From Phytoseiulus persimilis (lineage: Eukaryota; Arthropoda; Arachnida; Mesostigmata; Phytoseiidae): a stretch of 64,000 nt of DNA. The notes below the pieces were generated by a model. The model searched no databases. It had not been told where the DNA came from and was given only the letters and a program-made list of their open reading frames with translations. Of this stretch, positions 1 to 64,000 are shown piece after piece (the first letter of the stretch is position 1; every line of letters begins with the position of its first letter). The position numbers and the translations under genes are program-made. The stretch lies in contig CM075103.1 in the NCBI GenBank assembly GCA_037576195.1, positions 33,936,723 to 34,000,722 of the forward strand, given 5' to 3'.

Positions 1-3000
1 CAGGCCGCGAAAATCCAGAAGAGAAAATTTGATGCAGGAAATCGAGCTGCACGCTGCACTCTGTTCGCATCGCTTCAGTCCGATCTTGCGGTCTCGCTCT
101 TCCACGCCAATTCGGAAACAGTGGATGCTCCAGAAATGTGGAGAGAAATCACTGGACGTTTCAACAATGCCAACGGAGGGCTGAAGAGAGTGGCACTGTC
201 GAAGTTCACTTCCTACATGTATCTGTCCAACAAAAGCGCTGGTGAGAATCTTCTCAGGTTCAATAAGATCTTAAGCCGCTGCGAGGCCCTAGGGGTCTCC
301 TTGCCTTCTGATTTGAAAATCACGATTCTGCTGGCAAGTTTGCCCCCGAATTGGGAATCTTTCAAGCAAAGTTTCACTGCAAGAGATGAGTCAGCTCAGT
401 CTCTTGTCCATCTAACATCTGCTATCGAGATGGAGGCAATACGGCGCGGTAGATTCGATACCAGTGAAGTGACAGCCCTGTTCTCGCGTCTTCGGCCTGC
501 ATCTGGGAGACAACACAACCGAGGGACATTCAGCGAGAGGTCAAGCGTAAACGGGACAATGACCAGCACATCAGAAAATGACTACTACGGTTGCGGTCAT
601 TCTGGACACATGATTACGCGATGCAACGCTCCAAGTGGAAGTGGAAATCGAGTAGAGAATCGATATCAACGCCCGCAGCGCTCTCAGCCTCCGCAGCAAC
701 CTCGGCGCAACCAGCAGCCACGGCGCGGCGGAATGAGATCCTTCAACCGCCATCGACAACAACATAGTGCACATCATACAGAAGCTGATGTGGTTGAGAT
801 CCTGAACTGTGAGATGGAGATTGTAGAGTCCCATATTACGACACCTGACAACGAATATGTGGTGGACTCCGGTACCAATTTTCACATGTGTAATTCTCTA
901 GAGCACATGACGCACTACGCAGCATTCCACCAGTCACGCAAAGTGAGATTGGGAGGTTCCCGGACCCTGAGAGCTCCTGGGTCCGGAACTGTTTACGTGA
1001 CACTCATTCAAGAGGGAAAGCCAGTGACAATCCAGCTGAATGAGGTGCTGTACGTTCCGAAACTCCGCCGAAACCTCATATCGGTCTCGAAGCTCGCAGA
1101 TGACAACTTTGAGATCAGGATCTCCCGGAATTCTATCTTCATGACCAGAGGGAAGACGTCCATTCAAGCAACAAGGAAGAATGGCCTTTACCCCCTTTAT
1201 GCCGTGGACTCCGCCGAAGAATACAACGCCGAAGACATCAAACCGAAGAAAAAGGTCAGCCTCACTAAAATGCACCGGAATTTCGCTCATTTCAACGCCG
1301 GACGGCTCAAGTCAATGTTACAACGTCAAGGATATGACGTAATCAAAGATTTCCTCAGCTTTGATAGCTACGTCAAAGGAAAAATGCCCAGAGCTAGCTA
1401 TCGGCCGGAACTCAGCAGCTCACTTGCCCCTCGTAACGGATGGATCAAGAGCGATGTCTGTTTCGTCAGTACGCCTTCCTGCGGCAGACATAACGCTTTC
1501 AAGACATTGACCGATAATCATAGCCGATTCCGAGAAACCTACTTCCTCCAGAATAAGCTAGAAGTCTTCGATCGGGTACGGGAATTCCCCAAGAGGTTCA
1601 AGCGAATATCAACGGGCCTCCTATGGATGAAGAAAAAGAACAGGAAGCGGATCCCTCACCCAACGACACCAGTGAGCCAGACAGCACCGGTGATGACGAC
1701 AACTTGGAAGAAGAAAGGAACGTAGACGACGAGCGAGCCATCGCATCGGGTTCGGTACCCGGCGATGAAGCCTCTCCTGCCAGAGAACCGCGCGGACGCA
1801 CCAGAAACCAGAGCTCGGCAAGGATGGAGGGACAAATCGAGGGAAGCAAGTACAATTTAAGAGACAAAGGTACCTTAAAGAAGCCGAACCATTTTGAGGC
1901 AGGGATAGCCTACAATGTAATAAGTAGTACTACAACCAAATGAAACTAGCGACCCCCTAGGCAGGTTCAACTCACAGGCAGACGTGCCTCTTAACCTAGC
2001 GGACGTGTATCGCTCAAAGTATAAAAATGAATGGTTTGCGGCAAGGGCATTGGAACTATAGTCCTTCAGAACTAATCAGGTTTTCAAACTCGTGGACCCG
2101 AACGCGGACAAAATGTCCTGACGAATTGATGGGTATTCTCGTTGATAACTGATAAGGACAATAGCATAATCAAGAGGAAGGCCAGGCCCGTGGTAAGAGG
2201 ATATAAACAAAGAGCTGGAATTGACTGTGATAGTCTGTTTAGCCCTGTGGCGAAGTTTGACACGATTATGGCAGTACTGTCAATCGCTGCACAGGAGCGT
2301 CTCCGTTTGAACCACACGGATATGTGCACGTCCTTCTCGTCTGCGCCATCAGACGAAAGACTCTTTATGAAACAGCTAGCTGGTTTGGACAACGGTACCA
2401 ACAGAGTCTATGAACTATTGAAGGCGTGGTATTGGATACTCCAGGCTCCTAAAATGTTTAACCAGAAATTGAGCAACACATTGTTGAGTCTCAATATGGT
2501 CGAGTTGACCAGAAGCAAGTTGGACTCTTGCTTGTACTTTCCAAATCCTCCGACTCGAGTTTTTGTTCTGATATACGTTGATGATGGCCTGATAGGCTCC
2601 AACGATGAACAAATGAATCGAAGAATAATAAAGGAACTAGAGAAAACCTTTAAACTTACCACGGCGCCGCTCGAGTTTTTATTGGGATTGAGGATTGCGA
2701 TCTCTCCCGACGGAGGTAGGATCCATTAGGATCAAGCCCAGTATGTTACCGAGCTACTAGATCGTTTCCGGATGTCAGATTGGAACGTGTCTTCTGTACC
2801 AATCGACTCAACGTCGAAATCTGCATTTGAAGGAAGAATCGATCTTACTCTGATGTATAGAGAGCTCGAAGGGGTTTTGAGGTTCGTGGCGGTGGGAACT
2901 AGAGGATATAGTTCCTACGCTGTTGGACTAAAGTCAAGATACGTAGACAAGCCAACACGCCACCTATGGAACGTCGGTCTAAAAACGTTGAGGTTTCCAT

Positions 3001-3400
3001 CAGAAACCCGGAACCACGGTCCCACGTATACTGGCGGTGCTCACGCCCAGATTGATGCCTGCTGTAATGTGCTTGCAGAAACACTCGGTGCAGTACCAGT
3101 GGAGCAGCTCAAATGTTTGGTGGAGCGCCAGTATGTTGGTCTTCAAGAAGCCAAAGCTGTATAACGCTTCCATCCCATTTGAAAGCAATATCGTGGAATG
3201 CATTGAAATGAGTAAGACCTGTTTGGGGCTGAGAAGGCTGTTACAGAAAGTCGGACATCAAATCACTCCGACTCTCCACGTGGACAACACAAGTTGCATC
3301 CAACTGTTGACAGAAGCCCAGGAATCTGAACGTTACAAAACGTTACAATACAGCCATATGATACTTCTGGCTCAAGGAACGGAGAGAAGATGGCATTACA
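1..3400 (+). pseudogene. Copia Gag-Pol remnant of copy 1
   Basis: The reading frame is open from base 1, so Gag begins outside the window. The Gag part (about 1-560) has the usual Copia helical region. A CCHC-type zinc knuckle remnant lies near 570-630. The protease signature DSG is near 865, followed by the pre-integrase and integrase region (about 1250-1560), an acidic linker (about 1600-1900), the RT (about 2140-2720, with a YVDD box near 2575) and an RNase H remnant (about 2760-3370). Similarity to the pol of copy 2 is obvious through RT and RNase H. This is a fossil with several breaks and is shorter than copy 2 in the integrase region. Confidence 0.85.
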
Positions 3401-3755
3401 GATAATGCAGTTCGCTCTCCTCCTGGTAGCGGCAAAAGCGGCTGCGTCCTCCCAGTGCGAGGATGATTGCCTCCCGCAGTGCAACCGACAGAGACAACCC
3501 TGTATGAGATCCGTACTGAACATCGATTATTTCCCATGCGATTGCTTGATAAGCGATCAAATCTGCATTGAGAGAGCATCTTCTGTTGCGGCTCTCCCGT
3601 TGCCAAATGGAACAACATTTGGAGGAGTCGATATCTTTATCGAATCCTATAACTATACACATGAGAAACCACCAGCACCTACACCTGTTTCATCAAGTGG
3701 AACAAAATTCCTCCAGGTCCACGCAACTGTGATCACTACACTTGTTGTGATGTAA
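3390..3755 (+). pseudogene. small envelope-like membrane glycoprotein remnant (copy 1)
   Basis: The ORF begins with a hydrophobic signal-peptide-like segment (MQFALLLVAAKAAA), then a Cys-rich region (CEDDC, PCDC), the shared motif LPNGTTFGG, an N-glycosylation sequon NYTH, a proline-rich stretch and the start of a second hydrophobic segment. It is clearly homologous to the ORF at 60818-61327 of copy 2 and occupies the same place just after pol. Its start overlaps the end of the pol region. I know no named family for it. It looks like a secreted or type I membrane protein. As part of copy 1 it is treated as a fossil. Confidence 0.65.
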
Positions 3756-4072
3756 GTCTGCTCAAAAGGCATAACCTGCTCGATTCAATCAGGGCAGCGT
3801 AGACAGTACCAGCGATGGGTGAAATCCTGCCTTCTGCAGGTTAACACCCGACGGGACCCGAGTCACCACACCAATCCACTGTAGAAGATGAATGAGAGGC
3901 TGATATTGAGACTTCCCATTCACAAAATAAATAATTGAATCTATGATGATCGGATTTGATCCTAAGCATAAGAACTTCACCAGGTCAGTACTTGATCTCT
4001 GAGATTTGGCATGCTCCGAGGGTGATGCGAACTCTTCGGTCTCATCATACCGGAGCACATGGATCTCAGGCC

Positions 4073-5510
4073 TCAAAGCAGTAGATCGGTGGACAAACAC
4101 ACATTTCCTGTCCAACACTGACTGGTGAATCCGATTGTATTCAAAAGTGATACATTTGTATCTTCTGGTAGAAATGGGAAGGCTCTTAGACCGTACCTCG
4201 GTGGTGGTGGTGTAATCAGCCGAAGCGCTGGTGGCTGTGTCTGTGACGCTGAGTTCTGTGGTGCCGTCATCCGATGCCGGAGTGGTGTTGCTGAAGTCTC
4301 AGTAGGCTCTCAGAACTGCTCGGCACGGCTAGATCAGAAGCTTCAGTTGTGTTTGAAGACAGAGAGAAAGTGCTGGACGGAGGGGCTGAAGTGGTACTCG
4401 AACCGACTGACGCTGGCTTCGACTCATCGACGTCCTGGTCCGGCTCAGTCCCAATAGCAAGAACTCGCACGACCCACTCATGACTGTTGTTGTTGAATGC
4501 TGAAGCCACGAATTGGGCTAACGGTCATGACTGGTACAAGTTGGGAAACAAACGAGATGTTAAGACCGGCTGAAGTACAGCAGTCTCAAATAATGTAGTA
4601 GCAGTGGGAAAAGGTTGAAACAAAATGAGTAGGAAATCAAAGATTTAGACCAGACATAGTGAGAATCCGTTAAGCGATCTCACCGGCTCTCTAACCTGAC
4701 AATGACACCGAGGAAAGGGACGAAGGTACTGAGTCAGGGAGGGTAGATGTCAAAAGAACAATCGGTTTGATCATCGACTGAGACATCCTCGTGATAATCT
4801 CGGGCAGATATCCCGTCGTTCTTGAAAGGCTTGGAGTTCGAGTGAATGACTTTTGAGAAACTGGTCTTTCCGAACTGGAGTGTATGTTATCCCATTCAGA
4901 CATGAATCTGGAGAAAATCGGGCTCACGTGGAAAGTGAACGCTCGTGAGTGGCGCGGCCACAAAGCATGAAGTACGAGTTGGACTGATATGAACAGGGGT
5001 TGTTAATAAGTCCTTTTCGGCCGGTGCACTAAACAGCGGGGTGAGTGATGGTGAGACCACACTCTGGGAAACAGAAGAAGATTTGGGAATTGGTTCAAAA
5101 GTAACCTCCCTCGGAACGAACACTGGAGTCGACTCGATGAGATAAAATGACTCGTGTTCTGATCATGAAATACATGAATGGCGGGAAGGATGAAAACCTG
5201 GCTATGCCCTTCCACCGGATGATCGAAGATTGGACACTTTGAGCATCAGAAGCACAGCTGCCGATGCAGGTGGATGGAGCCAATCTTGCTTACGACATCC
5301 AGGTCCAGAATTGCTTGGAAGCATTCGGACAGAGAATCCCGAGACTCCTAAGATGGCAATGGCACTAAGAAAGCCTCCAGTGCACCATAGAAACTTGGAA
5401 GCCATGATGAGAGTCAGGACCGGAACCAAAGAATGCTGATCCGTAGTAATGATCGAAGCATTCCAGGGATCCTCATATTCAAAAGGGAGAGTGCTGATTG
5501 CTAATGACAC
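4073..5510 (-). pseudogene. antisense gene B remnant (type II membrane protein, copy 1)
   Basis: Scattered minus-strand ORF segments here match, in the same order, the plus-strand gene at 59106-60738 of copy 2. They include an N-terminal hydrophobic stretch (FLSAIAILGVSGF), a middle segment with the conserved TTGYLPE and SMIKPIVL motifs, a Ser/Thr-rich segment, and a C-terminal part with LDRKCVFVHRST. The gene runs opposite to pol. Its shared order with copy 2 shows that it belonged to the ancestral element. Broken, several breaks. Confidence 0.6.
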
Positions 5511-5728
5511 TCTGACCCGGAAAAAAAAAGAAAAGCACCATGATCAAATAAGCCAGATCATGTAGTAACACTCGAATAAGAACAACTGCCCAGGAAACAA
5601 ATACATTTGGAGTGAGAACAAATTGGCAAAGCTGCCCATGCCCGCTAGAGGCGGACGGCGACGGACAAGATCAAGTACGTCTACAGTGACGGGTGTATCC
5701 GTCTGGACCACATGGATTGGATGCTGCC

Positions 5729-6922
5729 CTAAGACGAACATACAACGTATGATGGAACCCCAGAGGGTCCATCGATGAGCAGGCATTCTAATCCCAAGTG
5801 GTGGCGGCATTTCCAGCCCATTTCAACGCGAGAGTACCAACATGCCCTGGCTGAGATAAGTCGGCTTGGAAGAGTTGGACCGATGGTGAGAGTCGTTGTC
5901 GATATAGGAGTGGAGCTTCCTTCATCCTCAGAAGACCACTCAGCAGTGGTTCGGTAGATCTTGAAAACCGAGTGACGGTCAATGGACTGCAGTGGAACTG
6001 CGACCAGCAAAGGTACCCCAGTCTCACTTGGAATGATGAACCATAAGACTCCTCCTGAAAACAATCAAGACAACTTTAAGACTCACCATCACACAGAAAG
6101 AAAAAAAGAGAGCTTGATAACCAATACAGGCAAAAGCGGTAAGAAATCGACTCACCGATAAAGAGCACGGCAAAGATGGCGAGCAGCACCCATTTTCGCT
6201 TGGGAAGCATGGCCGCCACTTGGCCAACAAAGGCCTGAACTAAAGAGAAAACGTTGGACTAAACAGGATGATCAAAATCCCTAGTCCTGACATCCTCTAC
6301 AGACGAGTGGACTCTCGTCTTGGCAGGCTGATCCGAAGAAGAGCTCACCCTTCCGACAGCCGTTGTCAAAAGAAACCTGATCCAATAGATCAGTAAGTAT
6401 CTTGATCTTGGATTCGAACGATTTGAACGAGGCTTCAGGATCCTTGACGTTACCATGTTCCCCTGGAGGTTGGTAACGGTGCTGTTGGATGACACAGCTG
6501 TAGCGGACACTTCGGTCGGAAGTTGGTCGATTCTCTGTTGAGGTATGTTCACCTCGAAACGGAGGCTCTGAAGATGACGAGCCTGACCAAATTGATACCA
6601 TATTACCAGCAAGGTAATCCCGACGTAGATCGAGCCCCTGCTGCTCTTCCTTGGCCAAGTGGAGTAAGTTTTCCGGCTCATCTACAGTCCTTCTCATCTG
6701 ATCAAACGCTATAATGACTTCCGTTACCACTGAGGTTTGGACCACAGACTTCGCGAACAGATTGAGCTGTGCTAAGAGCTTAGCATCGTTGTCAGCAAAT
6801 TTCCCCTGCTGAACGCCCAACCGCTGAACAGTGCCGAATAATTCCCAGACAAGTTGGAATCCTGCGGTACGACTGAGTGAGACTCCTCGACACAAAGCCA
6901 GACACATCACTGTGCACATCAC
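5729..6922 (-). pseudogene. antisense gene A remnant (heptad-rich membrane protein, copy 1)
   Basis: Minus-strand segments match the plus-strand gene at 57273-58894 of copy 2. The heptad-rich N-terminal domain shares LLAQLNLFAKSVVQT and GLDLRRDYLAGNM-like stretches. The C-terminal tail shares GWKCRHHLGLECLLIDG. The order along the minus strand (gene A, then gene B, converging on pol) is the same as in copy 2. Broken, several breaks. Confidence 0.65.
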
Positions 6923-8195
6923 TCAAAAATTAAGATCCATGACCAGCTTCCCGTAGTTTGCGGCAAGCTGGGATTCCTGAACATTCACCACGACCAGACT
7001 CCCATCAGAAACTCGACCGCTGTTGGTAGGAGCTACCTCAGCGCTGGTTCGATGAACCAGTTCTTTCCTCTTCCCTGCTGTTGCGAAAGATGAAAGATAG
7101 AATACCTTTGGTGGTATGACAAAGTCTGGATGGGTACTGTGTCCTCGGAGGACAACAACAGGAATGAGCTAGAACATCTAAGATGATAAGTTCCTTGACC
7201 CTCGCAGGAGTTAGAAAAGAAAAGCAACTCAAGCCAAACAGGAAAGATCAAATTTGCTGTGGAAGAAAGCAAGTTCTTGAACAAACTCAAGTGTGACGAT
7301 CAAATGCGCTTTCGAAGCAATGCAACTCAGAAAGCTAGATCGCGAGAAAGTTCCAAAGGTCCTCCTTTAGAGGAGACCTCTTAAAGGCGGAAAAAAAAAG
7401 GACTAATGACACGCGAACAACATATCGTTGGGAATCACAGTCGAAGTTGGACACAAAGACTGAATGGATACCCCAAAGCCGAGTTCGTGTCTGATCCCTA
7501 ATTGGAATCGTATGCACGCCAAGAAGCTGAAGAGCGCTTGGATGCGTGGGAGCTAGATGGAGATCTTCCTGGTTGTCAATAGGAAGAGAAATCGCCCCGG
7601 AGGAGAAAACTCGAAAAGTTATGGATAGCGCCTCCCCTCGACTGGATGGTCACACGGGTCGGATCAACTCCCTCGCCACGCTTGGGATTCACTTGCCATC
7701 TCAGAACAACAGAAACCATCAACGGTTCATAGTGTTGTTCAGACCCCAGAAAAAGTACTAACAAGTTTCACGTGAACAACGTAAGAATGGAACCTCAGCA
7801 AAGCTGAAACAAGGTGAAAGTGAACTAAACCAGAGCACTCGAGGTTTTCCCATACACGGCAAGGTGCTAAACCAATAATAAGGAAGGACCTTGAGAGACG
7901 ACAAGCACAGGATGGCGACAATCGTCTCAGGATCCCTGCTGTCGCACCTCAGGTCAAATGAGTTCAAACAGTTTAACGAGAACTATTACGATGTGTTTAT
8001 GTAGCAGTCGGGCAACCCCGACCTGTACCAAACGGTGAGAAAGAACCCTGGTACACCTAGGAGTTCCACAGAACATTGTGTATTAATAACTCCACTAACT
8101 GCATGGGAAAGTTGAGTCCAGATTTGACCGAAGCCTGTGAATTATTGCTGATTGCAATCATGATCATCTGGTTGTAAAAAGAGACTGTTTCATCT
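6923..8195. other. no gene recognised, inside Copia copy 1
   Basis: The stretch lies between the start of antisense gene A and the polypurine tract. Only short spurious ORFs are seen. The 241-aa ORF found at the same place in copy 2 (55940-56665) has no recognisable counterpart here. The two copies match again only over the last 30 or so bases before the LTR. Confidence 0.5.
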
Positions 8196-8204
8196 AAGGG
8201 AGGG
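8196..8204 (+). other. polypurine tract of Copia copy 1
   Basis: AAGGGAGGG lies directly before the LTR start. The same tract precedes the LTR of copy 2 (minus strand, 55823-55831). It is the expected primer site for plus-strand synthesis. Confidence 0.7.
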
Positions 8205-8520
8205 TGCTGAGAAATATCGTTACACTTCAGTATCTGAAACATGTCTCAACTACCCACACCCGTAACGGGAACAAGGACAAGCCGTGTGCGTGATTACGCC
8301 ACGGGATTGCAGCACCGGGCTTAGACACTTAGATTTGGCCGCGGTCAGCTCACGCTTTCCCGCCAAGTATAAATACTGCAATAAAGAAGTTTCGCTCTTG
8401 AGGAGCTACGCATTCCCTAACCGGAACTCTGTCTGTTTATTTCGTGCCGTGATCTTCCAGCTTCCAGAGAACTTCCAGATCGGTGTCTGCCGACTGACTT
8501 CAGGGAACGAATATCCAACA
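8205..8520 (+). repeat. 3' LTR of Copia copy 1
   Basis: The 316-bp LTR starts TGCTGAGAAATATCG and ends ATCCAACA, giving TG...CA ends with a short imperfect inverted repeat. It aligns along most of its length with the LTR at 55478-55822, including TCTGTCTGTTTATTTCGTGC and the GGGAACGAA end. The following base is already satellite sequence (gagca at 8521-8525 would be the right-hand target duplication). The left LTR is outside the window, so the duplication cannot be confirmed. Confidence 0.8.
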
Positions 8521-54690: not shown

Positions 54691-55185
54691 ATTCCCCCAG
54701 CATCTTCATCGTTTCCTTCATTCTCGTTGGATTTTTCCCCAGGGCTATACCACGCTGCGAATCGCGCCAGCGTGATACTTTCAATGCCACTCTGCTCATG
54801 AGCTGAGTTTGATCGAATTCTGGATCCGCTTCATGTATCATTGTCAGTTCTCGATGCAATTGACTTATTCCTCGATTGGATTTCTTGACATACTCAACAA
54901 CGTGGGTGTCACAGGTATACGGATCGAGCAGATCGATTTGCAGATCCATGTTCGAATCGAGCACGGACGCTATATAAGGCTTGAATGTGTTCACGTAGAT
55001 TTGAGTCATATCTCTGTTGAACATCATAGATGGGCGCTTCAAGCTTGATCTCATCAAGTCATGAATCGCGACGTAGGCTTTTGTTTCTAGTAAAATGCGG
55101 GCGTTAGCCACTTCGTTCTTGAGAATATCCAACCGTTGGTCCTGTTTGTGCAAAGGCATCAGTACTCTCAATTGAAACATGGACC
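54691..55185 (-). pseudogene. Helitron Rep-region fragment (Helitron-like N domain)
   Basis: Motifs VANARILLETKAYVAIHDLM, DMTQIYVNTFKPYIASVLDS and LLDPYTCDTHVVEYVKKSNR, then GISQLHRELTMIHEADPEF, are the conserved block upstream of the helicase in Helitron proteins. The catalytic HUH motif lies further upstream and is absent here. The open frame runs straight on into satellite sequence upstream (to 55468), so the recorded ORF is a chance fusion. Confidence 0.7.
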
Positions 55186-55477
55186 AATAGGGGATATTGG
55201 TTCCGGAATCACCCCCCCCCCAGAGTTGGAAAGTGATGCTCAGATAGGTCCCGGAATCACCCCTCCAGAGTTGGGAAGTAATGCTCAGATTGGTCCTGGA
55301 ATCACCCCTCCAGAGTTGGAGAGCAATGCTAAGATTGGTCTCGGAATCACCACTCCAGACTTGAGAAAGTATGGTCAGATTTGTCCCGGAATCACCCCTC
55401 CAGGCTTGGAAAGTAATGGTCAGATCGGCTCCGAAATAACCCCTCCACGTTCCGAAAAGGATGTTCAAATAGGTTCC
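55186..55477 (-). repeat. 45-bp satellite block between Helitron and Copia copy 2
   Basis: About six and a half monomers, minus orientation (CTCCAGAGTTGGAAAGTAAT and GATTGGTCCCGGAATCACCC on the plus strand). Diverged, with a C-run at 55211-55220. It abuts the Helitron fragment on one side and the LTR of copy 2 on the other. Confidence 0.85.
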
Positions 55478-55822
55478 TGTTGGATTTTCGTTCCCTGAAA
55501 TCAGTCGGTAGACACCGATCTGGAAGGTTCTCTGGAAGCTCGAAGATCACGGCACCAAATAAACAGACAGAGTTCCGGTTAGGGAATGCGTAGCTCCTCG
55601 GGAGCGAAGCTTCTTTATTAGCAGTATATATACCAGTAGGGAAAGCGTGAGCAGACCGGGGCCCGGCTCGAAGCGGGTAGCCTTCGAGCCGAGGCCACAC
55701 GTCTTAGCCCGGCGCTGAAAACTCGTGTCGTAATCACGCACACGACTTGTCCTTGTCCCCGTTACGGGTGTGAGCAATTGGGACATGTTTCAGATACTGA
55801 AGTGCAACGATATTTCTCAACA
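55478..55822 (-). repeat. 3' LTR of Copia copy 2
   Basis: 345 bp. On the minus strand it starts TGTTGAGAAATATCG and ends AAAATCCAACA, with 5-bp inverted ends TGTTG/CAACA. It aligns with 8205-8520, with several indels between the two. It contains a TATATACTGC-type promoter region and an AATAAAGAAGC polyadenylation-type signal. GTTCC (55473-55477) would be the target duplication, whose partner is outside. Confidence 0.85.
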
Positions 55823-55939
55823 CCCTCCCTTAGATGAAACAGTCTCATTCCAGGGGTAACAATTACTGGTGGTTAGTAACGATTCGTATCGGTGTCCTGC
55901 TCTCATGTATTTATCAGCAGTACATAAGTATGTGGGGTG

Positions 55940-56665
55940 TTATTGCCAGGTGAAACACTGGCCCCGAATTTCCTGGGGAATGGCTCTGTAGCCGTCAAAC
56001 CCAACCCTGATACCATACGTATGTCTTATGCTCTGGAGTAACACCATGTCAGTTTCACTTTTCAGTGACTCTGAGTGGTGTTCAGATACATAGTCGGTTA
56101 TCCTTGACATAAGATCTGATAACAATACTCCTCTAACCATAGCCATAAAGTCTTTCTTGTATCTAGGGGTTGTATTTTCCCACATTTTATCTAGCACCTT
56201 TGAGTGTATAATTCCTTTGTGACGCCAGTTCTTGACCTCGTGAATTTGTTGGCGGAATGCTTGCATTACCAATTCGTCGAACTGGGGCCCGGAATCTGCA
56301 TATATCGGCTCCCTGATGAGTGTGTGGTAGGCCTCCTTCACTGCACTGGTCGTCTTTGGGCGGCTGATATACCTAGTGCGGAGGTTTACATACCCAAAGC
56401 AGGGTATGACCCAAGTTGGTCCGCCGAAGCCAGGGTGACGTCTGAGCCTGCTTGGGTGCATCCTGGTCACTCTGCTGCAATCACTGCAGCTTTCGTCCAG
56501 GCAGGGGAGTGACCAGTGATCAATACTTATAATTGAGGAATGGTGTGGTGATTTCAAGAAATGTTCCAGGCTGGCCGTGTGATATAAATCCGTGTAGGGA
56601 AATACCAGCGTAGCTCTGGCATGGAGCACTAACTGTTCACGGCTCATCTTCTCCAAGTCCAGCAT
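55940..56665 (-). CDS. uncharacterised 241-aa ORF in Copia copy 2
   Basis: Starts MLDLEKMSREQLVLHARATL and is open for 241 codons, between the antisense genes and the polypurine tract, on the pol strand. It contains a short Cys cluster (LPCLDESCSDCSRV), an aromatic-Pro segment (GPTWVIPCFGY) and a mixed helical C-terminal half (EVKNWRHKGIIHSKVLDKMW). There is no signal peptide or membrane helix, so it is probably soluble. I recognise no family. Copy 1 has no counterpart, so it was either lost there or gained here. Its start faces the start of antisense gene A across about 600 bp (divergent), so that interval may hold a two-way promoter. Confidence 0.5.
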   Translation of the reverse strand: MLDLEKMSREQLVLHARATLVFPYTDLYHTASLEHFLKSPHHSSIISIDHWSLPCLDESCSDCSRVTRMHPSRLRRHPGFGGPTWVIPCFGYVNLRTRYISRPKTTSAVKEAYHTLIREPIYADSGPQFDELVMQAFRQQIHEVKNWRHKGIIHSKVLDKMWENTTPRYKKDFMAMVRGVLLSDLMSRITDYVSEHHSESLKSETDMVLLQSIRHTYGIRVGFDGYRAIPQEIRGQCFTWQ

Positions 56666-57272
56666 GATGCACTACGGTTGTTGTTGTTCGGGCACAAGAG
56701 CACTCTGATGCATCAGTTGTCTTCTTTGTGTTCATGCCACAAGTGTTTCAGAAAAAAACAGAAAACCGGTGGTGAGGGATGTGAACCACTTCCATGTGAC
56801 CCCTTATTCACCGGACCGTCATCCACCACTCTTTGTTGAGAGGAATCATCTCATTTGTTCCTCAGCGGGGTTGATCGAAATTCGACCCCTACATCTTTCT
56901 ACGCTTTACAGCCTTTGCTGTCTACATGTGGCTTTGATCAAGGTGGATACAACGTGCTCGATTCCAATTGTATCATGCTGAGTTCTTGTGAACTCTGCTG
57001 GAGCTTTCTCAGGAGTCAGTTTCTTGCTTCAAGTGCTTCTCACACTTCTATGATCATAATTTTCCAAGTTCATTCTGGATTTTGTTTAGTCTGTCTCTGT
57101 AGACTTTGTCACCTGTTGTCTTGGAAGATGTCCTCAGAGTTTCTCAATCGAGATTCTCTCTCAGCTCGTGGATATTTAAGGTCGCACTCGTCTTTTCGAG
57201 TTCATTCTTCCTTCTTAGTCTTGCCGCGACTATTCACCTCCAGTTCCTCGCCGCCACCTCAGGTATCTTAAA
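56666..57272. promoter_or_regulatory. divergent intergenic region of copy 2, possible leader of antisense gene A
   Basis: It lies between two divergent genes. On the plus strand a T/C-rich stretch leads to CACCTCAGGTATCTT near 57245, which looks like an exon end in a leader. No clear TATA box. The role as a promoter is an inference from position. Confidence 0.3.
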
Positions 57273-58894
57273 TTGCACCGCCCTGTTGTCATGGAAGACA
57301 AAAAGTTTGAACTTGTTCCTAGGCCTCCATCTGAGGTGGTAGCGCCGGCGGTCCCCCGACCGCCGGATGGGAACCTGGTCATGGTGAACGTCCAGGAATC
57401 TGCCTTGGCTGCTAACTACGGCAAGCTGGTGTTAGATCGAATCGTGAACGTTGAAAACAGCCTTGAGCTGTGTCGTGAAGAGTCTCTGCAGCGCTCTTCT
57501 GAGCTTCAACGAGTGTACGACTTGTTTGGTAAAGTTCATCAGCTGAGTTCCCAGCAAGAGGTGTTTACTGAGAACTACACAAATCTGTTGGCACAACTCA
57601 ACCTTTTTGCGAAGTCGGTTGTTCAAACTCCCGTGGTCACGGGTGTCATCGAGTCTCTGGAGTCGATGAAAGCCACCCTGGAGGAACAGAAAGCCACACT
57701 CCGCCTGACTCAGCAAGATCAGGCCGGACTGGGCCTTCGTCAGGATTTCATTGCCGGGAGTATGGTCTCCCACGATCAGGCCCGTCACCTGCAAAGTCTC
57801 ATCTCAGAGCTTCGTCAGGAGGTGACCGAGCTCCAGCTCAAAGTCAGTCATCGAGCGACTGAAACTCCCACCTCGGTTCCCTCAACCAAGTACGCGCTTT
57901 CGGGCGATATGGACAACATAAAAGATCTAGTTCATAAGATCGATGGCAAAGTCCGTCGGCTGGAAGAGACGGTGAAGAAAAACTTCTCCTCCACTGCCGA
58001 TCGCGCAGTTGACCTGGAGTCAACGTTCAAGTCCTTTGAATCAAACATCAAGGTCCTAACCGACCAACTGGACCTGAAGTTCCAGTTTCAGGACACCCTC
58101 AATCAGGAGTTGAAAGCAAAAATTTCAAGGAACTCAGCCAACGTCAACCATCTTTCCCATGAAATCGATATCATCAAGTCAGATCAAATCAAGATTTCGT
58201 CCGTGGTTGCTAAGGTGAGCTCGTCCACCGATCCACCAACTGAGATTTCACCTCACTCTCAGGAGGGAGAGTCCGCACCTTGGGACTCGATCCCTTCAGG
58301 TGCGCGTGGCTTCCGGGCCGCGACTCAGGCCTTCTTCACTCGATTGGTGGCCTCTACGTATCGATGGAGGTGGATGCTGTTGATTCTTGCAGCATCCCTC
58401 CTGTTTGGTGAGTTTTACTTTAACCATTTTTCCTCCATTGCAGTATTATCAGCGTGGTCAGATGGGGTTCATATTCTTTTGGGTTGTTTCCAGGAGGACT
58501 CATCTGGGCACTCGCCTCGAGTGGATCGATAGGATCCCAAACTTCTACCCGCCTCACTCCCGGTTCTACAACCGAAACCAATGCCAGTGGCAGACAGGGC
58601 CTCACCCCTGCTCCTACCACTCCCGCTCCGTCTTCGGAGGATGATGACGTTACCACTCCATCTCCAACGGTCTCATCGACTACTTCAACCACTCCTCCAC
58701 GCTTCACCATTTCCACCAGAGCATATTGGTGTGCTCGCTTTGATGAGGGGTGGAAATGTCGCCATCGTATTGGCTCGGAGTGCCTGCTTGTTGATGGAAA
58801 TCATCCGGTTCCATCACAAGTATCGTGTTCTGCCCGAGAGGCATCCAGGGAATGTGGTGATGGAGGGTCGGTTCGTTATTGTAAACGAACTTGA
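57273..58894 (+). CDS. antisense gene A: heptad-rich type II membrane protein of Copia copy 2
   Basis: Runs opposite to pol. The first coding segment (57273 to about 58411) gives a Pro-rich start, then about 300 residues with repeated heptads (LLAQLNLFAKSVVQTP, SLISELRQEVTELQLK, then DIKSD-type stretches). This looks like a long coiled coil on the cytoplasmic or lumenal-opposite side. It ends in basic residues and a hydrophobic helix (WMLLILAASLLFG). The last segment (about 58490-58894) encodes a Ser/Thr/Pro-rich stalk (TPAPTTPAPSSEDDD) and a short Cys-containing tail (WCARFDEGWKCRHRIGSEC). The two segments seem to be exons of one gene. AATAAA follows at 58993-58998. Homologous remnant in copy 1 at 5729-6922. 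Predicted topology: type II, with a mucin-like exterior tail. No named family recognised. Confidence 0.6.
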
Positions 58895-58992
58895 TCGATC
58901 TGCCGCAGTTTCTGCGTTTCTAGGCATTACAGCCCATGGAGTCAAACTGTTTTGGCTTTCTGGGCAATTATTTTGCTTTTCTCTTCTTTCCG

Positions 58993-58998
58993 AATAAA
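58993..58998 (+). terminator. polyadenylation signal of antisense gene A
   Basis: AATAAA about 100 bp after the stop at 58894, before the start of gene B. Confidence 0.55.
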
Positions 58999-59105
58999 GA
59001 TAAACAATTCGGCTTATTTGATCATGGTGTTTCTTATTTCTGGGGTCAGAGTGTCAATACCATTTTACACTCTCCTATTTAAACCGAGATTATGTCCGGA
59101 GTGAT

Positions 59106-60738
59106 ATGATCACTTCATTTCGCATTTGCAACTCATCGGACATTGTTGCTCTCGTGATGTTTCCTCGTGTTTTCTACGGTGTCGGGGGTTTTGTTAGTGC
59201 TTTGGTGGTTGTGGTCATCTTGACCACTCTAGCCCATGTTTTCCAGGGGCTCTCATTCACCTGGTCCTCCGCTCACCAGTTTGAGCACCTTCCATGTTCA
59301 AGCCATTCAGCAGAGAGCATCCACGGCGCTCAATCAATGCTGGCTCCATGGACCGACACCTCCCCGCTTGAGACAAGCCATGTCTCTCCATCGTTTTTAC
59401 ACCGTCAGCAATCTTCTTCTTCTGTCTCTGTCGTGACACCTGTACTTCTTTCTAGCGAGGCTTTCCTCGAGCTATCGTTTGATTCTTCCTCTGTCATTCA
59501 AAGAGTGGTTTCCTCTGGGTTGCCACTCACTCCACTTTACGGTGCTTCTTCCGAGAGTGACGGTGTTCCGACCCCTGTTCTCATTAGTCCGACTCGAACG
59601 TTGCGATCCGCATCCACATCGCTTTCAAATTCACTTTCTCGTCATGAATCGGTTTCTCTTCAATCCTCCCGTGATGCAGCACTCGAGGCATACATCCGGG
59701 ATAACGAATTCTTTCTCGGATGGAGTCGGGTCGTGCAGGGGCATATTGATTTCACATCAAGGCTCCATGCCGACTTAGCCAAGTTCCGCTCTGGCGCGAG
59801 TACGGCTACAGTCCGAGCGTCTTCTACTCGGACTCCGATCCAATCTCGAACAACGGACTATCAACCCGAGCGCATCACCGAGGTGCCTCTGTCAATAATC
59901 AAACCTGTTGTTCTTCCGACCATCTCCCTCCCTGAGTTGATCTCCTCATCTCTTCCAACTCTGGAGTCCTCAGGAGTTTCCTCAACGGGAGAGTCGGTGA
60001 GTTTTCTTAATAGTTTTGAATAGTGAGATTCTATGTTTTTTTTTTTTCCTTTGCTATGTGACTCTTCTACTTTTTGTTTTCCAGATTTTTCCTGCTGTCA
60101 TCTTGGTTTCCTCCACCGTTGTCCCTGGATCAGTCCTGAGTTCTCAGGTGCTGTTACCCACTCTCAGCACGGCCATCATCCCAACGGAGGTATCTGCTGA
60201 TGACACTCCTCACTACGAATGGATTGAGCAAGCCGTTGCCGAGGAGGCCGATTTGGATCTGAGTGTCGAGGAATCGAAACCGAAGCGATTCAACACGAGC
60301 ACTACACCAGCACCTCCTTCAAGCACCCTTTCGACCTCCACAACCACAACTGATCCCACTACTCCAACTCCAACTGACGCCACTGAGTCTCTGACAACAG
60401 AGTCCGACAGCAGCAGCTCTTCGCCGGACGACGACAGCACCTCCGGGTTCAGTGCCCCGGACGCAGTTACCGACCCACCGACTGATGACGTCACCACCAC
60501 GGAAGTTTGGTCCATGAGACTTCCCATTCCCACCAGAAGGTACCGGTGTGCCATATTAGAGTACAATCGACTCTGCAAGTCAGTGCTGGACAGAAAGTGT
60601 ATTCTAGTCCAGAGATCCACTCCTTTGCGGCTTGAACTTCTCGTATACCAGTATGTTGGAAACGAGGAGTTCGCCGCTGCGTCAGAGCATACGAAATTTC
60701 AAGGATCATGCACTGGATTTACATGGTTCTTTGCTTAG
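59106..60738 (+). CDS. antisense gene B: Ser/Thr-rich type II membrane protein of Copia copy 2
   Basis: Starts MITSFRICNSSDIVALVM, with a strong hydrophobic helix at about residues 20-45 (GGFVSALVVVVILTTLAHVF) and no cleavable signal, so type II topology is likely. A long Ser-rich region follows (to about 60000). A second coding segment after a short non-coding gap (about 60085-60738) carries a dense Ser/Thr/Pro stalk (TSTTPAPPSSTLSTSTTTT) and a Cys-containing end (RRYRCAILEYNRLCKSVLDR). The end resembles the tail of gene A in spacing and in the pattern C-x9/10-C-x5-C followed by a hydrophobic residue and V. Remnant in copy 1 at 4073-5510. No named family recognised; a surface glycoprotein is the best description. 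Confidence 0.6.
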
Positions 60739-60739
60739 T

Positions 60740-60789
60740 AATAAAATCGAATGCCAGCACCTTAGGGGTTCGGATTGGAAGTCTTTATT
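60740..60789. terminator. convergent polyadenylation signals of sense and antisense genes
   Basis: AATAAA on the plus strand at 60740-60745 ends antisense gene B. AATAAA on the minus strand (plus-strand TTTATT at 60784-60789) follows the small glycoprotein ORF. The two transcripts therefore seem to end tail to tail within about 50 bp. Confidence 0.6.
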
Positions 60790-60817
60790 TGGCATTTAGG
60801 AGCCAATTCTTAGAGAT

Positions 60818-61327
60818 TCAAATGTTCTCAACCGTGGACTGATATGGTGTCCCGACGCCACCTGGGCGATCATCCGCGGTGGGTTGTGTTCTACTCAACT
60901 GCTGGTACTGCCTCCGCCGCCATGTTTGGATCAGACATGTGATGCTGTTGGAGCAGGCATACATCACAACAAGTGTAGTGAGTGATGCCGCATAGATCAG
61001 GAGGAAGTTTGTTCTTTCTGATGGAACGGGTGCCGGTGCTGGTGGTATTTGATGTGTATAGTTATAGAAGTCAATCCAGATACTGGTTCCGCCAAACGTT
61101 GTTCCATTCGGTAACAGACAGGCTACACCAGGGGACGCTTTCTCAATGCAGGTCTGGTTGCTCATCAAGCAGTCACACGGGAAGAATTCGGGACTCATTT
61201 CGGATATAGTGCAGGGTTGTCTCTCTCGGATGCACTGTGGTAGACAGTTATCCTTGTACTGGAAGTATGCGGCCACTCTTGCCGCTACCATGAGGAGGGC
61301 GAACTGTATCATCTGTGATACCTGCAA
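60818..61327 (-). CDS. small envelope-like type I membrane glycoprotein of Copia copy 2
   Basis: 169 codons, overlapping the end of pol by about 80 bp in another frame. N-terminal signal-peptide-like segment (MIQFALLMVAARVAA), then a Cys-rich ectodomain (DNCLPQC, QPCTISE, FFPCDCLMSNQTC, GVACLLPNGTTFGG), sequons NQTC, NGTT and NYTH, a Pro-rich stem (HQIPPAPAPVPSE), a membrane helix (FLLIYAASLTTLVVMYAC) and a basic cytoplasmic tail (TWRRRQYQQLSR). This is the topology of a very short class-I-like surface protein, though no fusion peptide is evident. It would need a spliced or internally started mRNA. Homolog in copy 1 at 3390-3755. No named family recognised. Confidence 0.65.
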   Translation of the reverse strand: MQVSQMIQFALLMVAARVAAYFQYKDNCLPQCIRERQPCTISEMSPEFFPCDCLMSNQTCIEKASPGVACLLPNGTTFGGTSIWIDFYNYTHQIPPAPAPVPSERTNFLLIYAASLTTLVVMYACSNSITCLIQTWRRRQYQQLSRTQPTADDRPGGVGTPYQSTVENI

Positions 61328-64000
61328 GTGTTCGCAGTCGGAGAAACTGAGGTTCTGGTAAGGCTTTCGTTTCGAGATCAGCCAAGTTTAGTTGTGATGG
61401 GCAATGGGTGATTTTGAACTCACCCTCTTCGATTCGTTCCTTCAGCCAAAAGTAACGTATGGCAATATGTTTAGAACGTTTTGATACCTGGGCTTCAGTT
61501 AGCAATTGGATGCAACCAGTGTTGTCCACATGAAGTGTCGGAGTAACTTGGTATCCGACCTCCTGAATCAGTCTGCTAAGCCACAAACAGGTTTTTCCCA
61601 TTTCGCTGCAAGCCACTATTTCACTTTCAAGGGTGGAAAGAGTGATACAGTTCTGCCGTCTGGAAGACCAGCAAACTGGTGCTCCGCCAAACATTAGCAC
61701 AGCGCCACTGGTACTGCAACGAGTACTCCTGCAACCGCCCCAGTCGGCGTCGCAGTAGGCGTCAATTTTGGCTTGAGCCCCACCAGTATAAGTTGGACCA
61801 TGGTTCCGGGTTCCTGACAGATACCTCAGTATTCTCAATCCTATGTTCCATAGATGGCGTGTTGGCTTATCCAAGTATCTGGACATCAGCCCAACCGCGT
61901 AGGAAATATCTCCTCTCGTTCCCACAGAAACGAACATCAAAGCCCCCACAAGCTCTCTATACTTAAGAGTAAGATCAACTTCTCCCTCAAATGCAGATTT
62001 CGACGTTGAGTCGATTGGTACTGGAGACACTTTGCAATCTGCCATCTGGAATCGATCTAGTAGCTCGGTGATATATTGGGCTTGATCCAAGTGGATCCTA
62101 CCTCCGTCGGGAGAGATTGCAATTCTCAATCCCAAGAAAAACTCGAGTGGCCCTGTGGTAAGTTTGAAAGTTTTCTCTAATTCCTTTATTATCCTTTGAT
62201 TCATTTGTTCTGAGTTGGAGCCTATCAGGCAATCGTCAACATAGATGAGAACAAAGACTCGAGTCGGAGGGTTGGAGAAGTACAAGCACGGATCCAACTT
62301 GCTTCTGGACAATCTGACTGTACTGAGGCTCAACAAAGTGTTGCTCAATTTCTGATTGAACATCTTCGGAGCTTGGACTGTTCCATAGCACGCCTTAAGT
62401 AGCTCGCAAACCCGGTTTGTGCCATCCTCAAAGCCAGCGGGTTGTTTCATAAAGAGCCTCTTGTCCAAAGGCGCCGACAAAAAGGCCGTGCATATGTCCG
62501 TATGGTTCAAACGGAGATGCTCCTGGGCGGCAATCGACAGTACTGTCCTAATAGTATCGAACTTCGCCACAGGGCTGAACAGACTATCATAGTCAATGCC
62601 AGGTCTTTGTTTATATCCTCTTACCACGAGCCTAGCCTTCCTTTTGATTATGTTATTGTCCTTATCAGTTTTTAACGAGAAAACCCACTTGTTCGTCAGA
62701 ACGTTCTGTCCGCGTTCTGGGTCTACCAGTTTGTAGACCTGATTGGTTCTAAAGGACTCCAATTCTAATGCCATTGCCGCAAGCCATTCATTTTTATGCT
62801 TTGAGCGATATACGTCCGCTAGGTTAAGAGGCACGTCTGCCTGTGAGTTGAACCTGCCTAGGGGGTCGCTATTTTCATGATTTGTAGTACTACTTGTTGC
62901 ATTGTAGGCTATTCCTGCCTCAAACTGGCTCGGCTTCTGTAAGGTACTCCTATCTCTAAGGTTGTACCTGCGTCCCTCGGTTTGTGCCTCCATCCGTGCC
63001 TGGTTCTGGTCATTGGTGCGTGCGCGCGCTTCTCTGGCCGGAGGGGCTGCTTCGCTGGGTCTCGTGCCCGGAGCGATGCCTAGCTCATCGTCTACATTTC
63101 TTTCTCTCTCCCATGTGTCGTCATCACCAGCGCTGTCTGGCTCGCTGGCGCCGTCGGGTGTTGGTTGAACTTCTCCTTCTTCTTCTTCTTCATCACCCGT
63201 CGGGGATCCGTTGATGTCGGCTCGGGCGGCATCTCGTGGTGCTGGCGGGAGCTTGTTCTCGTCATCGAACAGCGGTGGTGTATCCTTTACCTGGATATCC
63301 CGGATCCTGTGTACTCGCGTTGTTCCTAGCTCCAGGACTCGGTAACTCAGACCGTCCTCGTCTATTCCGCATACTGCACCAGCGATGGCCCGCGTATCCA
63401 ATTTCCCTTTCCCGGGCTGGATGTTGTAGAACCAGCACCTGGTTCCAAATCTCAGGATTCTGTTCAGGTATGGCTTGTGGCCAGTGATCAACTCGAAAGG
63501 GGACTTCCCAGTTGGCTTATGCTCCTTGGTGGCGTTGAGACAGAAAGTCCCGAAATTTATCGCCTCAGCCCATACTCCTTTTCCGAGGTTGCTGTCAAGG
63601 ATCATTGTCCTTGCAAGGTTGAGCAACGTGCGATTCAGACGCTCGCTTACAGCGTTATGCATAGGAGTGTACGGGGCACTGTAGGAGTAATCACATCCTG
63701 TTGATGCAAAGAGTGCCTGTAGCCTCTTGTTTTGAAACTCAGAGCCGCCATCCGAGTGAAAATGGTATACCTGCTGTCCTGATCTCAGCCTGAACCACTT
63801 GAGGAAATCCCGGATCCGATCAAAGACCTCAGCTTTGTTGTGGAGGAAGTAGACTTTTCGGAATCGGCTATAATCGTCAGTCAATGTCAGGAAAGCGTTG
63901 TGTCTGCCGTAGGAAGGCGTACTGACGAAACAGACATCGCTGTTGATCCATCCAATACGAGGGGCGCGTGAGCTGCTGGGTTTCGGCCGAAAGCTAGCTC
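61248..64000 (-). CDS. Copia Pol of copy 2: integrase, RT, RNase H (5' part outside window)
   Basis: The frame is open to the window edge. Integrase core: TDDYSRFRK, FHSDGGSEF and NAVSERLNRT give the DDE residues. An acidic low-complexity linker follows (EEEEEGEVQP, near 63200). RT: NTNKWVFSL-type start, then FDTIRTVLSIAAQEHLRL, the YVDD active site near 62240 (FVLIYVDDCLIG). RNase H: DADWGGCRSTRCSTSG, then LSTLESEIVACSEMGK. It ends with a short tail after ALPEPQF. Product: the polyprotein part that copies and inserts the element. It looks whole over the visible part. Confidence 0.9.
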   Translation of the reverse strand, partial: ASFRPKPSSSRAPRIGWINSDVCFVSTPSYGRHNAFLTLTDDYSRFRKVYFLHNKAEVFDRIRDFLKWFRLRSGQQVYHFHSDGGSEFQNKRLQALFASTGCDYSYSAPYTPMHNAVSERLNRTLLNLARTMILDSNLGKGVWAEAINFGTFCLNATKEHKPTGKSPFELITGHKPYLNRILRFGTRCWFYNIQPGKGKLDTRAIAGAVCGIDEDGLSYRVLELGTTRVHRIRDIQVKDTPPLFDDENKLPPAPRDAARADINGSPTGDEEEEEGEVQPTPDGASEPDSAGDDDTWERERNVDDELGIAPGTRPSEAAPPAREARARTNDQNQARMEAQTEGRRYNLRDRSTLQKPSQFEAGIAYNATSSTTNHENSDPLGRFNSQADVPLNLADVYRSKHKNEWLAAMALELESFRTNQVYKLVDPERGQNVLTNKWVFSLKTDKDNNIIKRKARLVVRGYKQRPGIDYDSLFSPVAKFDTIRTVLSIAAQEHLRLNHTDICTAFLSAPLDKRLFMKQPAGFEDGTNRVCELLKACYGTVQAPKMFNQKLSNTLLSLSTVRLSRSKLDPCLYFSNPPTRVFVLIYVDDCLIGSNSEQMNQRIIKELEKTFKLTTGPLEFFLGLRIAISPDGGRIHLDQAQYITELLDRFQMADCKVSPVPIDSTSKSAFEGEVDLTLKYRELVGALMFVSVGTRGDISYAVGLMSRYLDKPTRHLWNIGLRILRYLSGTRNHGPTYTGGAQAKIDAYCDADWGGCRSTRCSTSGAVLMFGGAPVCWSSRRQNCITLSTLESEIVACSEMGKTCLWLSRLIQEVGYQVTPTLHVDNTGCIQLLTEAQVSKRSKHIAIRYFWLKERIEEGEFKITHCPSQLNLADLETKALPEPQFLRLRTLAGITDDTVRPPHGSGKSGRILPVQG

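Follow-up and report, generated by a model that had tools for sequence, protein, structure and literature searches.

A Copia-type element of Phytoseiulus persimilis with a predicted membrane-protein module divided between its two strands

The stretch of Phytoseiulus persimilis DNA analysed here, 64,000 nucleotides of contig CM075103.1 (positions 33,936,723 to 34,000,722; referred to as the window), carries at 55478-64000, on the minus strand, the 3′ part of a Copia-type element, the remainder of which is in L009, outside the window. Four cargo genes are placed between its pol gene and its 3′ long terminal repeat (LTR), namely gp, which encodes a small predicted glycoprotein, and ORF4 in the sense orientation, and G1 and G2, which encode predicted type II membrane proteins, in the antisense orientation (Table 1). 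The module of membrane genes is spread over dozens of copies in several subfamilies and is not a local accident, and in the subfamily of the window copy all cargo frames are under purifying selection. A preliminary description of the same DNA had listed gp and two antisense genes, all of which are present, and had mentioned neither ORF4 nor introns nor poly(A) signals.

Results

The Copia-type element that had been placed at 55478..64000 is borne out by its LTRs, target duplication and domain order. The two LTRs are 100% alike and a 5-bp target duplication, GTTCC, stands on both outer flanks (55473-55477 on the 3′ side); since the LTRs are identical and GTTCC is found on both sides, the window copy is a recent insertion with both ends complete. 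The purine run AAGGGAGGG directly precedes the 3′ LTR, and the LTR features characteristic of Copia (Pseudoviridae), TG..CA, the 5-bp duplication and the purine run, are all found in the window element. Gag-pol is encoded by a single minus-strand frame (L009 2455 to window 61248), in which the Pfam domains follow the order Copia-type gag (Retrotran_gag_2), Pol_BBD, integrase and RVT_2, integrase preceding RVT_2 as is the rule in Copia; Retrotran_gag_2 and Pol_BBD score above the Pfam cut-off, and the zf-CCHC knuckle, at 16.7 bits, falls under its cut-off of 20.8.

Hydropathy and alignment give gp a signal-peptide-like start, a Cys-rich ectodomain with three N-glycosylation motifs, one membrane segment followed by a basic patch, and a short tail with RRxxYQxL, in agreement with the small signal-peptide glycoprotein described earlier on the pol strand. 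Among ten aligned gp proteins from four subfamilies the six ectodomain Cys residues are (near-)invariant, and a GGxxIW...Y..TH stretch, the RRxxYQxL tail and a terminal P[YC]..T are shared. All ten begin MIQF, MLQI, MQLK or MWSF, so that the MGxxxS/T myristoylation motif is absent. The gp proteins of other subfamilies are about 47-54% identical to that of the window. Neither a PDB sequence search nor Pfam at its cut-off returned any match to gp, and no match to known viral glycoprotein sequences was found in Pfam, PDB or viral contigs, where 46 pattern matches came up, none of them confirmed. A tick-evasin-like Cys-rich secreted fold was rejected, being unsupported by Pfam or PDB profiles or by fold search. 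Homology to retroviral Env finds no sequence match in Pfam, PDB or viral contigs, and a fold search for it was run with a model whose predicted local distance difference test score (pLDDT) is 55.

The two antisense genes had been described as encoding predicted type II membrane proteins with mucin-like stalks and short Cys tails; this is supported, with the addition of one predicted intron in each (Table 1). Exon 1 of G1 encodes half of the membrane segment, and its frame soon reaches a stop; beyond the predicted GT-AG intron, exon 2 resumes the segment. GT and AG occur at the same place in 12 of the 13 copies compared, which were chosen from those retrieved and represent subfamilies A, B, C, D and E; the donor is GTGAGT, GTATGT or GTACGT and the acceptor AG, and in the sole exception, L025, the donor has been removed by a deletion. 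Reading of the sequence places the intron in phase 1 in A, C, D and E. It appears to have been kept while several subfamilies diverged, the G1 proteins of other subfamilies being 22-31% identical to that of the window in the whole-genome protein search. In the copying route of LTR elements an intron antisense to the packaged RNA stays in through reverse transcription; the G1 intron would thus persist because the genomic RNA has the other polarity and the intron is not spliced out before reverse transcription. The conservation of the splice sites suggests, in turn, a level of antisense transcription and splicing high enough for selection to maintain them. The coiled-coil-like part of G1 gave weak Pfam matches (syntaxin, laminin II), all under the cut-off.

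Across four G2 pieces, Ser, Thr and Pro together make up 60-68% of the 60-residue stretch of the mucin-like part in which they are most abundant. The split of G2 into two frames recurs in another A copy; because G2 is uninterrupted in L028, L029, L033 (536 aa) and L040 (514 aa), its intron looks like a gain. The tails of G1 and G2 align as C-x8-C-x7-C, and a profile comparison (E 3.8e-4, probability 36%) hints at common descent; L029 was left out of the G1 tail alignment and L017 out of that of G2, each because of a stop codon, L036 and L037 were omitted by choice and L019 was added. A PDB sequence search with both Cys tails gave no match.

All copy comparisons were made within one genome, the 181-Mb assembly. 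The best 150 of 217 gp candidates and the best 150 of 443 RVT_2 candidates were scored. The scored gp matches have 25-100% identity, and 91 of the 150 are stop-free in the matched part (hand count). On the same strand, gp lies 0.3-2.3 kb downstream at 69 of the 150 scored RVT_2 loci, mostly at 0.7-0.9 kb, and on the opposite strand it occurs within 2.5 kb at none (0/150). The corresponding search with G1 gave 94 matches, 62 of which entered the strand comparison (the 32 omitted were mainly second fragments of loci already included): G1 is convergent with gp within 6 kb at 44 of the 62 loci and co-oriented with it within this distance at 0/62. Presence of the cargo in other copies and constraint on its frames had been singled out beforehand as what would separate a family trait from a local accident; these counts establish the first, and the dN/dS values (ratios of nonsynonymous to synonymous change) given below the second.

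Subfamily A, that of the window, has seven gp places of 93-100% DNA identity, window included, and subfamily B 17 places at 74-76% DNA identity; C comprises L040 and L041, D L028-L030 and E L031-L034. Matches to gp, G1 and G2 keep the same order and strands in copies of all five, some of them being missing from the truncated A copies L021, L023 and L027 and from L041. In L032 an unbroken gag-pol frame of 1484 aa is accompanied by gp, with G2 in two frames. More distantly, a group with gp identities of 36-39% is represented by L043, in which gp is met by a convergent tail of G2 type, poly(A) signals being present on both strands.

In most B rows gp contains a TAA stop, and in L036 and L037 the frame ends at the same place. 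B has the appearance of a defective set that was amplified, perhaps mobilised in trans with the help of other elements. The pol and G1 frames are broken too in the B copies read.

For subfamily A, dN/dS was obtained from pairwise counts against the window copy, with bootstrap intervals and five copies per frame (four for ORF4). The values are 0.23-0.33 for gp, 0.08-0.15 and 0.35-0.47 for G1 exons 1 and 2, 0.28-0.38 and 0.22-0.30 for G2 exons 1 and 2, and 0.08-0.11 for ORF4, with 0.12-0.17 for the reverse transcriptase part of pol as a comparison; every bootstrap interval lies below 1. All cargo frames in subfamily A are under purifying selection (dN/dS 0.08-0.47). Between subfamilies, synonymous sites are saturated and the counts little informative, and D pol was left out of the counts, its reference having no open frame. 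The long cargo frames are not due to chance: in each of four copies, none of 200 dinucleotide shuffles reached the observed length of the longest cargo open frame.

AATAAA or ATTAAA follows gp in the sense direction in 14 of 17 copies chosen from those retrieved (the misses are L013, L025 and L029), the distance being taken in some B and D copies from the match end and not from the stop codon. The signal lies at most 45 nt after gp in all five subfamily representatives (5/5); single-base shuffles reach this with frequencies of 3-23% each, the product of which is 5.6e-6, a value to be read with the common descent of the five representatives in mind, since their signals did not arise independently. 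Antisense signals are found after G2 in 6/6 A copies, the C copy and 1/3 D copies, and after G1 in 5/6 A, 3/3 D and 3/3 E copies. Where both strands have such signals, as in A, C and L043, the two transcription units would terminate facing each other.

The cargo seems to have a mosaic history. Compared with the window copy in 300-base steps, L010 (C3:38728500-38738400) has a rounded identity of 100% over some 4.1 kb, between about 56.98 and 61.07 kb, and of 72-94% outside this block, which contains the two antisense genes and the latter half of gp. Against other A copies, synonymous differences are 0.30-0.45 in G1 exon 1 and 0.20-0.50 in ORF4, higher than in pol (0.15-0.17) and gp (0.12-0.13). 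Cargo blocks have probably been exchanged between lineages or subfamilies.

ORF4, the fourth cargo gene, has no membrane segment by hydropathy and a poor structure model (pLDDT 46). Its 13 rows in the whole-genome protein search fall in the window's subfamily, in a 65% relative in the mosaic L010 and in one decayed 43% relative and, judged by these matches, ORF4 is a mark of subfamily A. None of the four cargo genes, ORF4 included, matches anything in Pfam above the cut-off.

Some further observations concern the surroundings of the copies. The element is surrounded by a 45-bp repeat array, in which several frames are open, and GTTCC occurs in the repeat unit. Long arrays of this repeat were seen at 8.5-25.8 kb, 41-42 kb and 55170-55474 of the window, at 664-2026 of L033 and at 3334-4721 of L041; being present near other copies also, they may be a preferred insertion target. 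A second, decayed B copy occupies the left end of the window (1-8520; Table 1). In L040, just upstream of G1, the antisense strand contains a gag-like fragment (796-1686, +), which looks like a rearrangement or template switch.

Table 1. Coordinates of the Copia-type element, its cargo and the second copy (window positions unless L009 is named)
Feature	Position	Strand	Remarks
3′ LTR	55478-55822	-	345 bp, TG...CA; same sequence as 5′ LTR
ORF4	55943-56665	-	241 aa; fourth cargo gene
G1	57291-58894	+	two exons, from splice-site reading
G1 exon 1	57291-58407	+	N-terminal part long and coiled-coil-like; membrane segment, first half
G1 predicted intron	58408-58493	+	86 nt, phase 1, GTGAGT...TTTCCAG, within membrane segment
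G1 exon 2	58494-58894	+	remaining membrane segment, Ser/Thr-rich stalk, six-Cys tail
AATAAA after G1	58993-58998	+	~100 nt past G1 stop
G2	59106-60738	+	two exons, from splice-site reading
G2 exon 1	59106-59996	+	N-terminal membrane segment, Ser/Thr-rich region
G2 predicted intron	59997-60084	+	88 nt
G2 exon 2	60085-60738	+	mucin-like stretch and Cys tail C-x8-C-x7-C
AATAAA after G2	60740-60745	+	one base past G2 stop
AATAAA after gp	60784-60789	- (sense)	28 nt past gp stop
gp	60818-61312	-	164 aa; start overlaps pol end
gag-pol 3′ part (integrase, SH3-like, RVT_2, pol remainder)	61248-64000, runs beyond window	-	frame and Pfam
5′ LTR	L009 2582-2926, outside window	-	345 bp, same sequence as 3′ LTR
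Decayed B copy, gp match	3402-3827	+	
Decayed B copy, G2 and G1 matches	3969-7072	-	
Decayed B copy, LTR-like	8208-8520		

Discussion

The gene content of the module, its strands, its conservation, the splice-site and poly(A)-signal sequences and the purifying selection in subfamily A can all be read from the sequences of the copies. From these we infer how the module may be expressed and what it may do. Sense RNA from the 5′ LTR would yield gag-pol and, from a start overlapping the pol end, gp as a type I glycoprotein; part of this RNA would probably end at the poly(A) signal after gp, which the full-length genomic RNA would have to read past. Antisense RNA started near the 3′ end would give G1 and G2, with G1 spliced through its membrane segment and its intron, unrecognised on the packaged strand, persisting for that reason. 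The products would be a disulfide-rich gp with a YxxL-type tail motif and two mucin-stalked proteins, of type II topology as predicted from hydropathy, whose Cys tails may be related. The three would most likely act jointly at the plasma membrane, bringing particles out of, or into, neighbouring cells, those of the germline for example.

A surface role for the module, most likely in the transfer of particles between cells, seems to us to have even chances of being correct. The three-gene membrane module split between strands that had been proposed for a Copia element stands, in many copies and under selection, and its role at the surface, in entry or on host membranes is kept here as a proposal. 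More tentative is the wider picture in which a metazoan Copia clade would have evolved an ambisense, partly spliced surface apparatus (gp and two antisense mucin-stalked type II proteins) that moves particles between cells, the antisense strand serving as an intron refuge and the module being traded between subfamilies as a block; this is considered possible, with the balance somewhat against it.

Several observations weigh against the surface reading. No homolog or fold was detected for gp in Pfam, in PDB or by the structure-based search that had been suggested for it, which was run with a poor model (pLDDT 55) and gave nothing at E <= 0.001. Among the matches listed, 81 of the 150 RVT_2 loci have no gp nearby, an upper limit for gp-less Copia elements, and the module is probably characteristic of some, not all, of the Copia elements in this genome. 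In L042 and L044, the two copies read from a group at about 30% gp identity, gp is intact (and follows a pol end in L042), and the 0.4-0.8 kb downstream contains neither a G2-type tail nor a poly(A) signal in either copy (2/2); because of these two copies gp may be the older part of the module and the antisense pair a later gain. The expression signals are unevenly distributed. An antisense poly(A) signal follows G2 in 0/3 E and 0/4 B copies examined, and none follows G1 in the B or C copies examined. TATTTAA upstream of G1 occurs in 5/5 A copies and in 0/7 copies of other subfamilies and, being confined to subfamily A, was rejected as a shared antisense promoter. TTGCAG, which may point to a spliced gp mRNA, precedes gp in 5/5 A and 3/3 E copies and in 0/2 C and 0/3 D copies. 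Finally, constraint is less uniform beyond subfamily A. In E, dN/dS is 0.28 and 0.32 for gp but 1.02 for L031, 0.47-0.64 for G1 and 0.51-0.64 for G2, with some intervals reaching 1. In D, the gp values are 1.71 (0.39-4.71) and 0.65, those of G1 0.15 for L029 but 1.50 for L030, and G2 gives 0.32 for L029 and, for L030, seven non-synonymous and no synonymous changes.

The module could instead act on the host, on its membranes, immunity or silencing, with the products as accessory proteins through which the element survives in the host cell. The coiled-coil-like part of G1 would be cytosolic, G1 is by dN/dS the most constrained of the three membrane genes, and antisense accessory proteins are described for retroviruses (PMC10186651). 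On the other hand, a signal-peptide gp with a conserved sorting-type tail right after pol suits a surface role at least equally well, and the host-directed function is regarded as rather unlikely. That the cargo consists of captured host genes, passengers of no benefit to the element, would agree with the resemblance of G1 and G2 to ordinary spliced cellular genes, with their own poly(A) signals in A copies, although host counterparts, which may exist, were not found; given the order and strands kept across subfamilies in spite of the divergence of gp and G1, as well as the purifying selection in subfamily A, this is improbable. Still further from likely is an antisense RNA that functions as RNA, by regulation of the sense RNA or by silencing, with the frames incidental: non-coding antisense RNAs have been reported for some retroelements (PMC7264820), but here the frames are long, dN/dS in A is well below 1, and the Cys residues and the intron place are conserved. 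A local accident or chimera in a single copy, in favour of which nothing was found, is refuted by the dozens of copies in several subfamilies.

The module is a candidate for the cell-to-cell movement of a Copia element without a known envelope, at a time when capsid transfer has recently been studied both for Copia (PMC11835246) and, in flies, for elements of the MDG1 group (PMC11952523). Passage through RNA should strip a retroelement of its introns, and antisense placement would explain why the apparent intron of G1 has been kept; antisense splicing in a retrotransposon is directly testable with this gene.

Comparison with known systems

In position the antisense genes are like those of the plant elements Grande, RIRE2, Retand and PvRetro13, in which a conserved antisense ORF lies between pol and the 3′ LTR (PMC7264820, PMC11963269), as do G1 and G2. 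As described in the parts of the Retand source considered, those are Gypsy elements; their antisense ORFs are mostly TRP28, and the sense ORFs located there are without membrane segments. The window element, by contrast, is a Copia element, whose cargo combines predicted membrane proteins with a conserved place for an intron and with a glycoprotein gene on the sense strand. A Pfam scan found no match to TRP28 (PF04195) in the cargo.

The closest functional analogue of gp seen in print is the sORF2 or FAST-like protein of the insect MDG1-group, which is small and single-pass, has basic residues after the membrane segment and has been proposed to move capsids into the oocyte (PMC11952523). Small size, a single pass and a basic patch are shared by gp. 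In the passages available, however, four of six fly sORF2 members start with MGxxxS/T, and the arthropod candidates are from Metaviridae, in forward orientation only, with a few downstream of pol (PMC11952523), whereas gp lies after pol and has antisense partners. It is not classed as sORF2 because of its signal-peptide-like start, its Cys-rich ectodomain and the absent myristoylation motif.

Antisense transcripts are known for deltaretroviruses (HBZ/APH), being spliced in human T-cell leukaemia virus (HTLV), and for human immunodeficiency virus 1 (ASP), ASP being a predicted membrane protein (PMC10186651). G1, with its conserved splice-site sequences, may be transcribed and spliced as the antisense gene of HTLV is. 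HBZ, as described, is a nuclear bZIP protein, whereas the G1 and G2 pieces, with exons scanned apart, match no bZIP family in Pfam.

Sireviruses, that is SIRE1 and its relatives, are plant-specific Copia elements that often have an envelope-like gene (PMC3599292, PMC3414828). Compared by description, they and the window element are both Copia with an envelope-like gene, and differ in the restriction of Sireviruses to plants. The envelope-like gene of Sireviruses is located after pol. To our knowledge, no antisense membrane pair is known in them. Of the LTR elements of bdelloid rotifers, those with an ORF3 are mainly Gypsy-like. This ORF3 is small, with transmembrane segments, Cys residues, a coiled coil and no detectable env homology (PMC5408684); antisense genes and introns, as found in the window element, are not mentioned for the rotifer elements in the passages of that paper considered.

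In the open-licence literature searched (titles, abstract starts and passages, including PMC12440569), no Copia element was found in which a glycoprotein gene in sense orientation is joined by a pair of antisense membrane genes and by an antisense intron of conserved position. Antisense or third ORFs in LTR elements were already known; what appears to be new is the combination, in Copia, of a sense glycoprotein with an antisense membrane pair and a conserved antisense intron.

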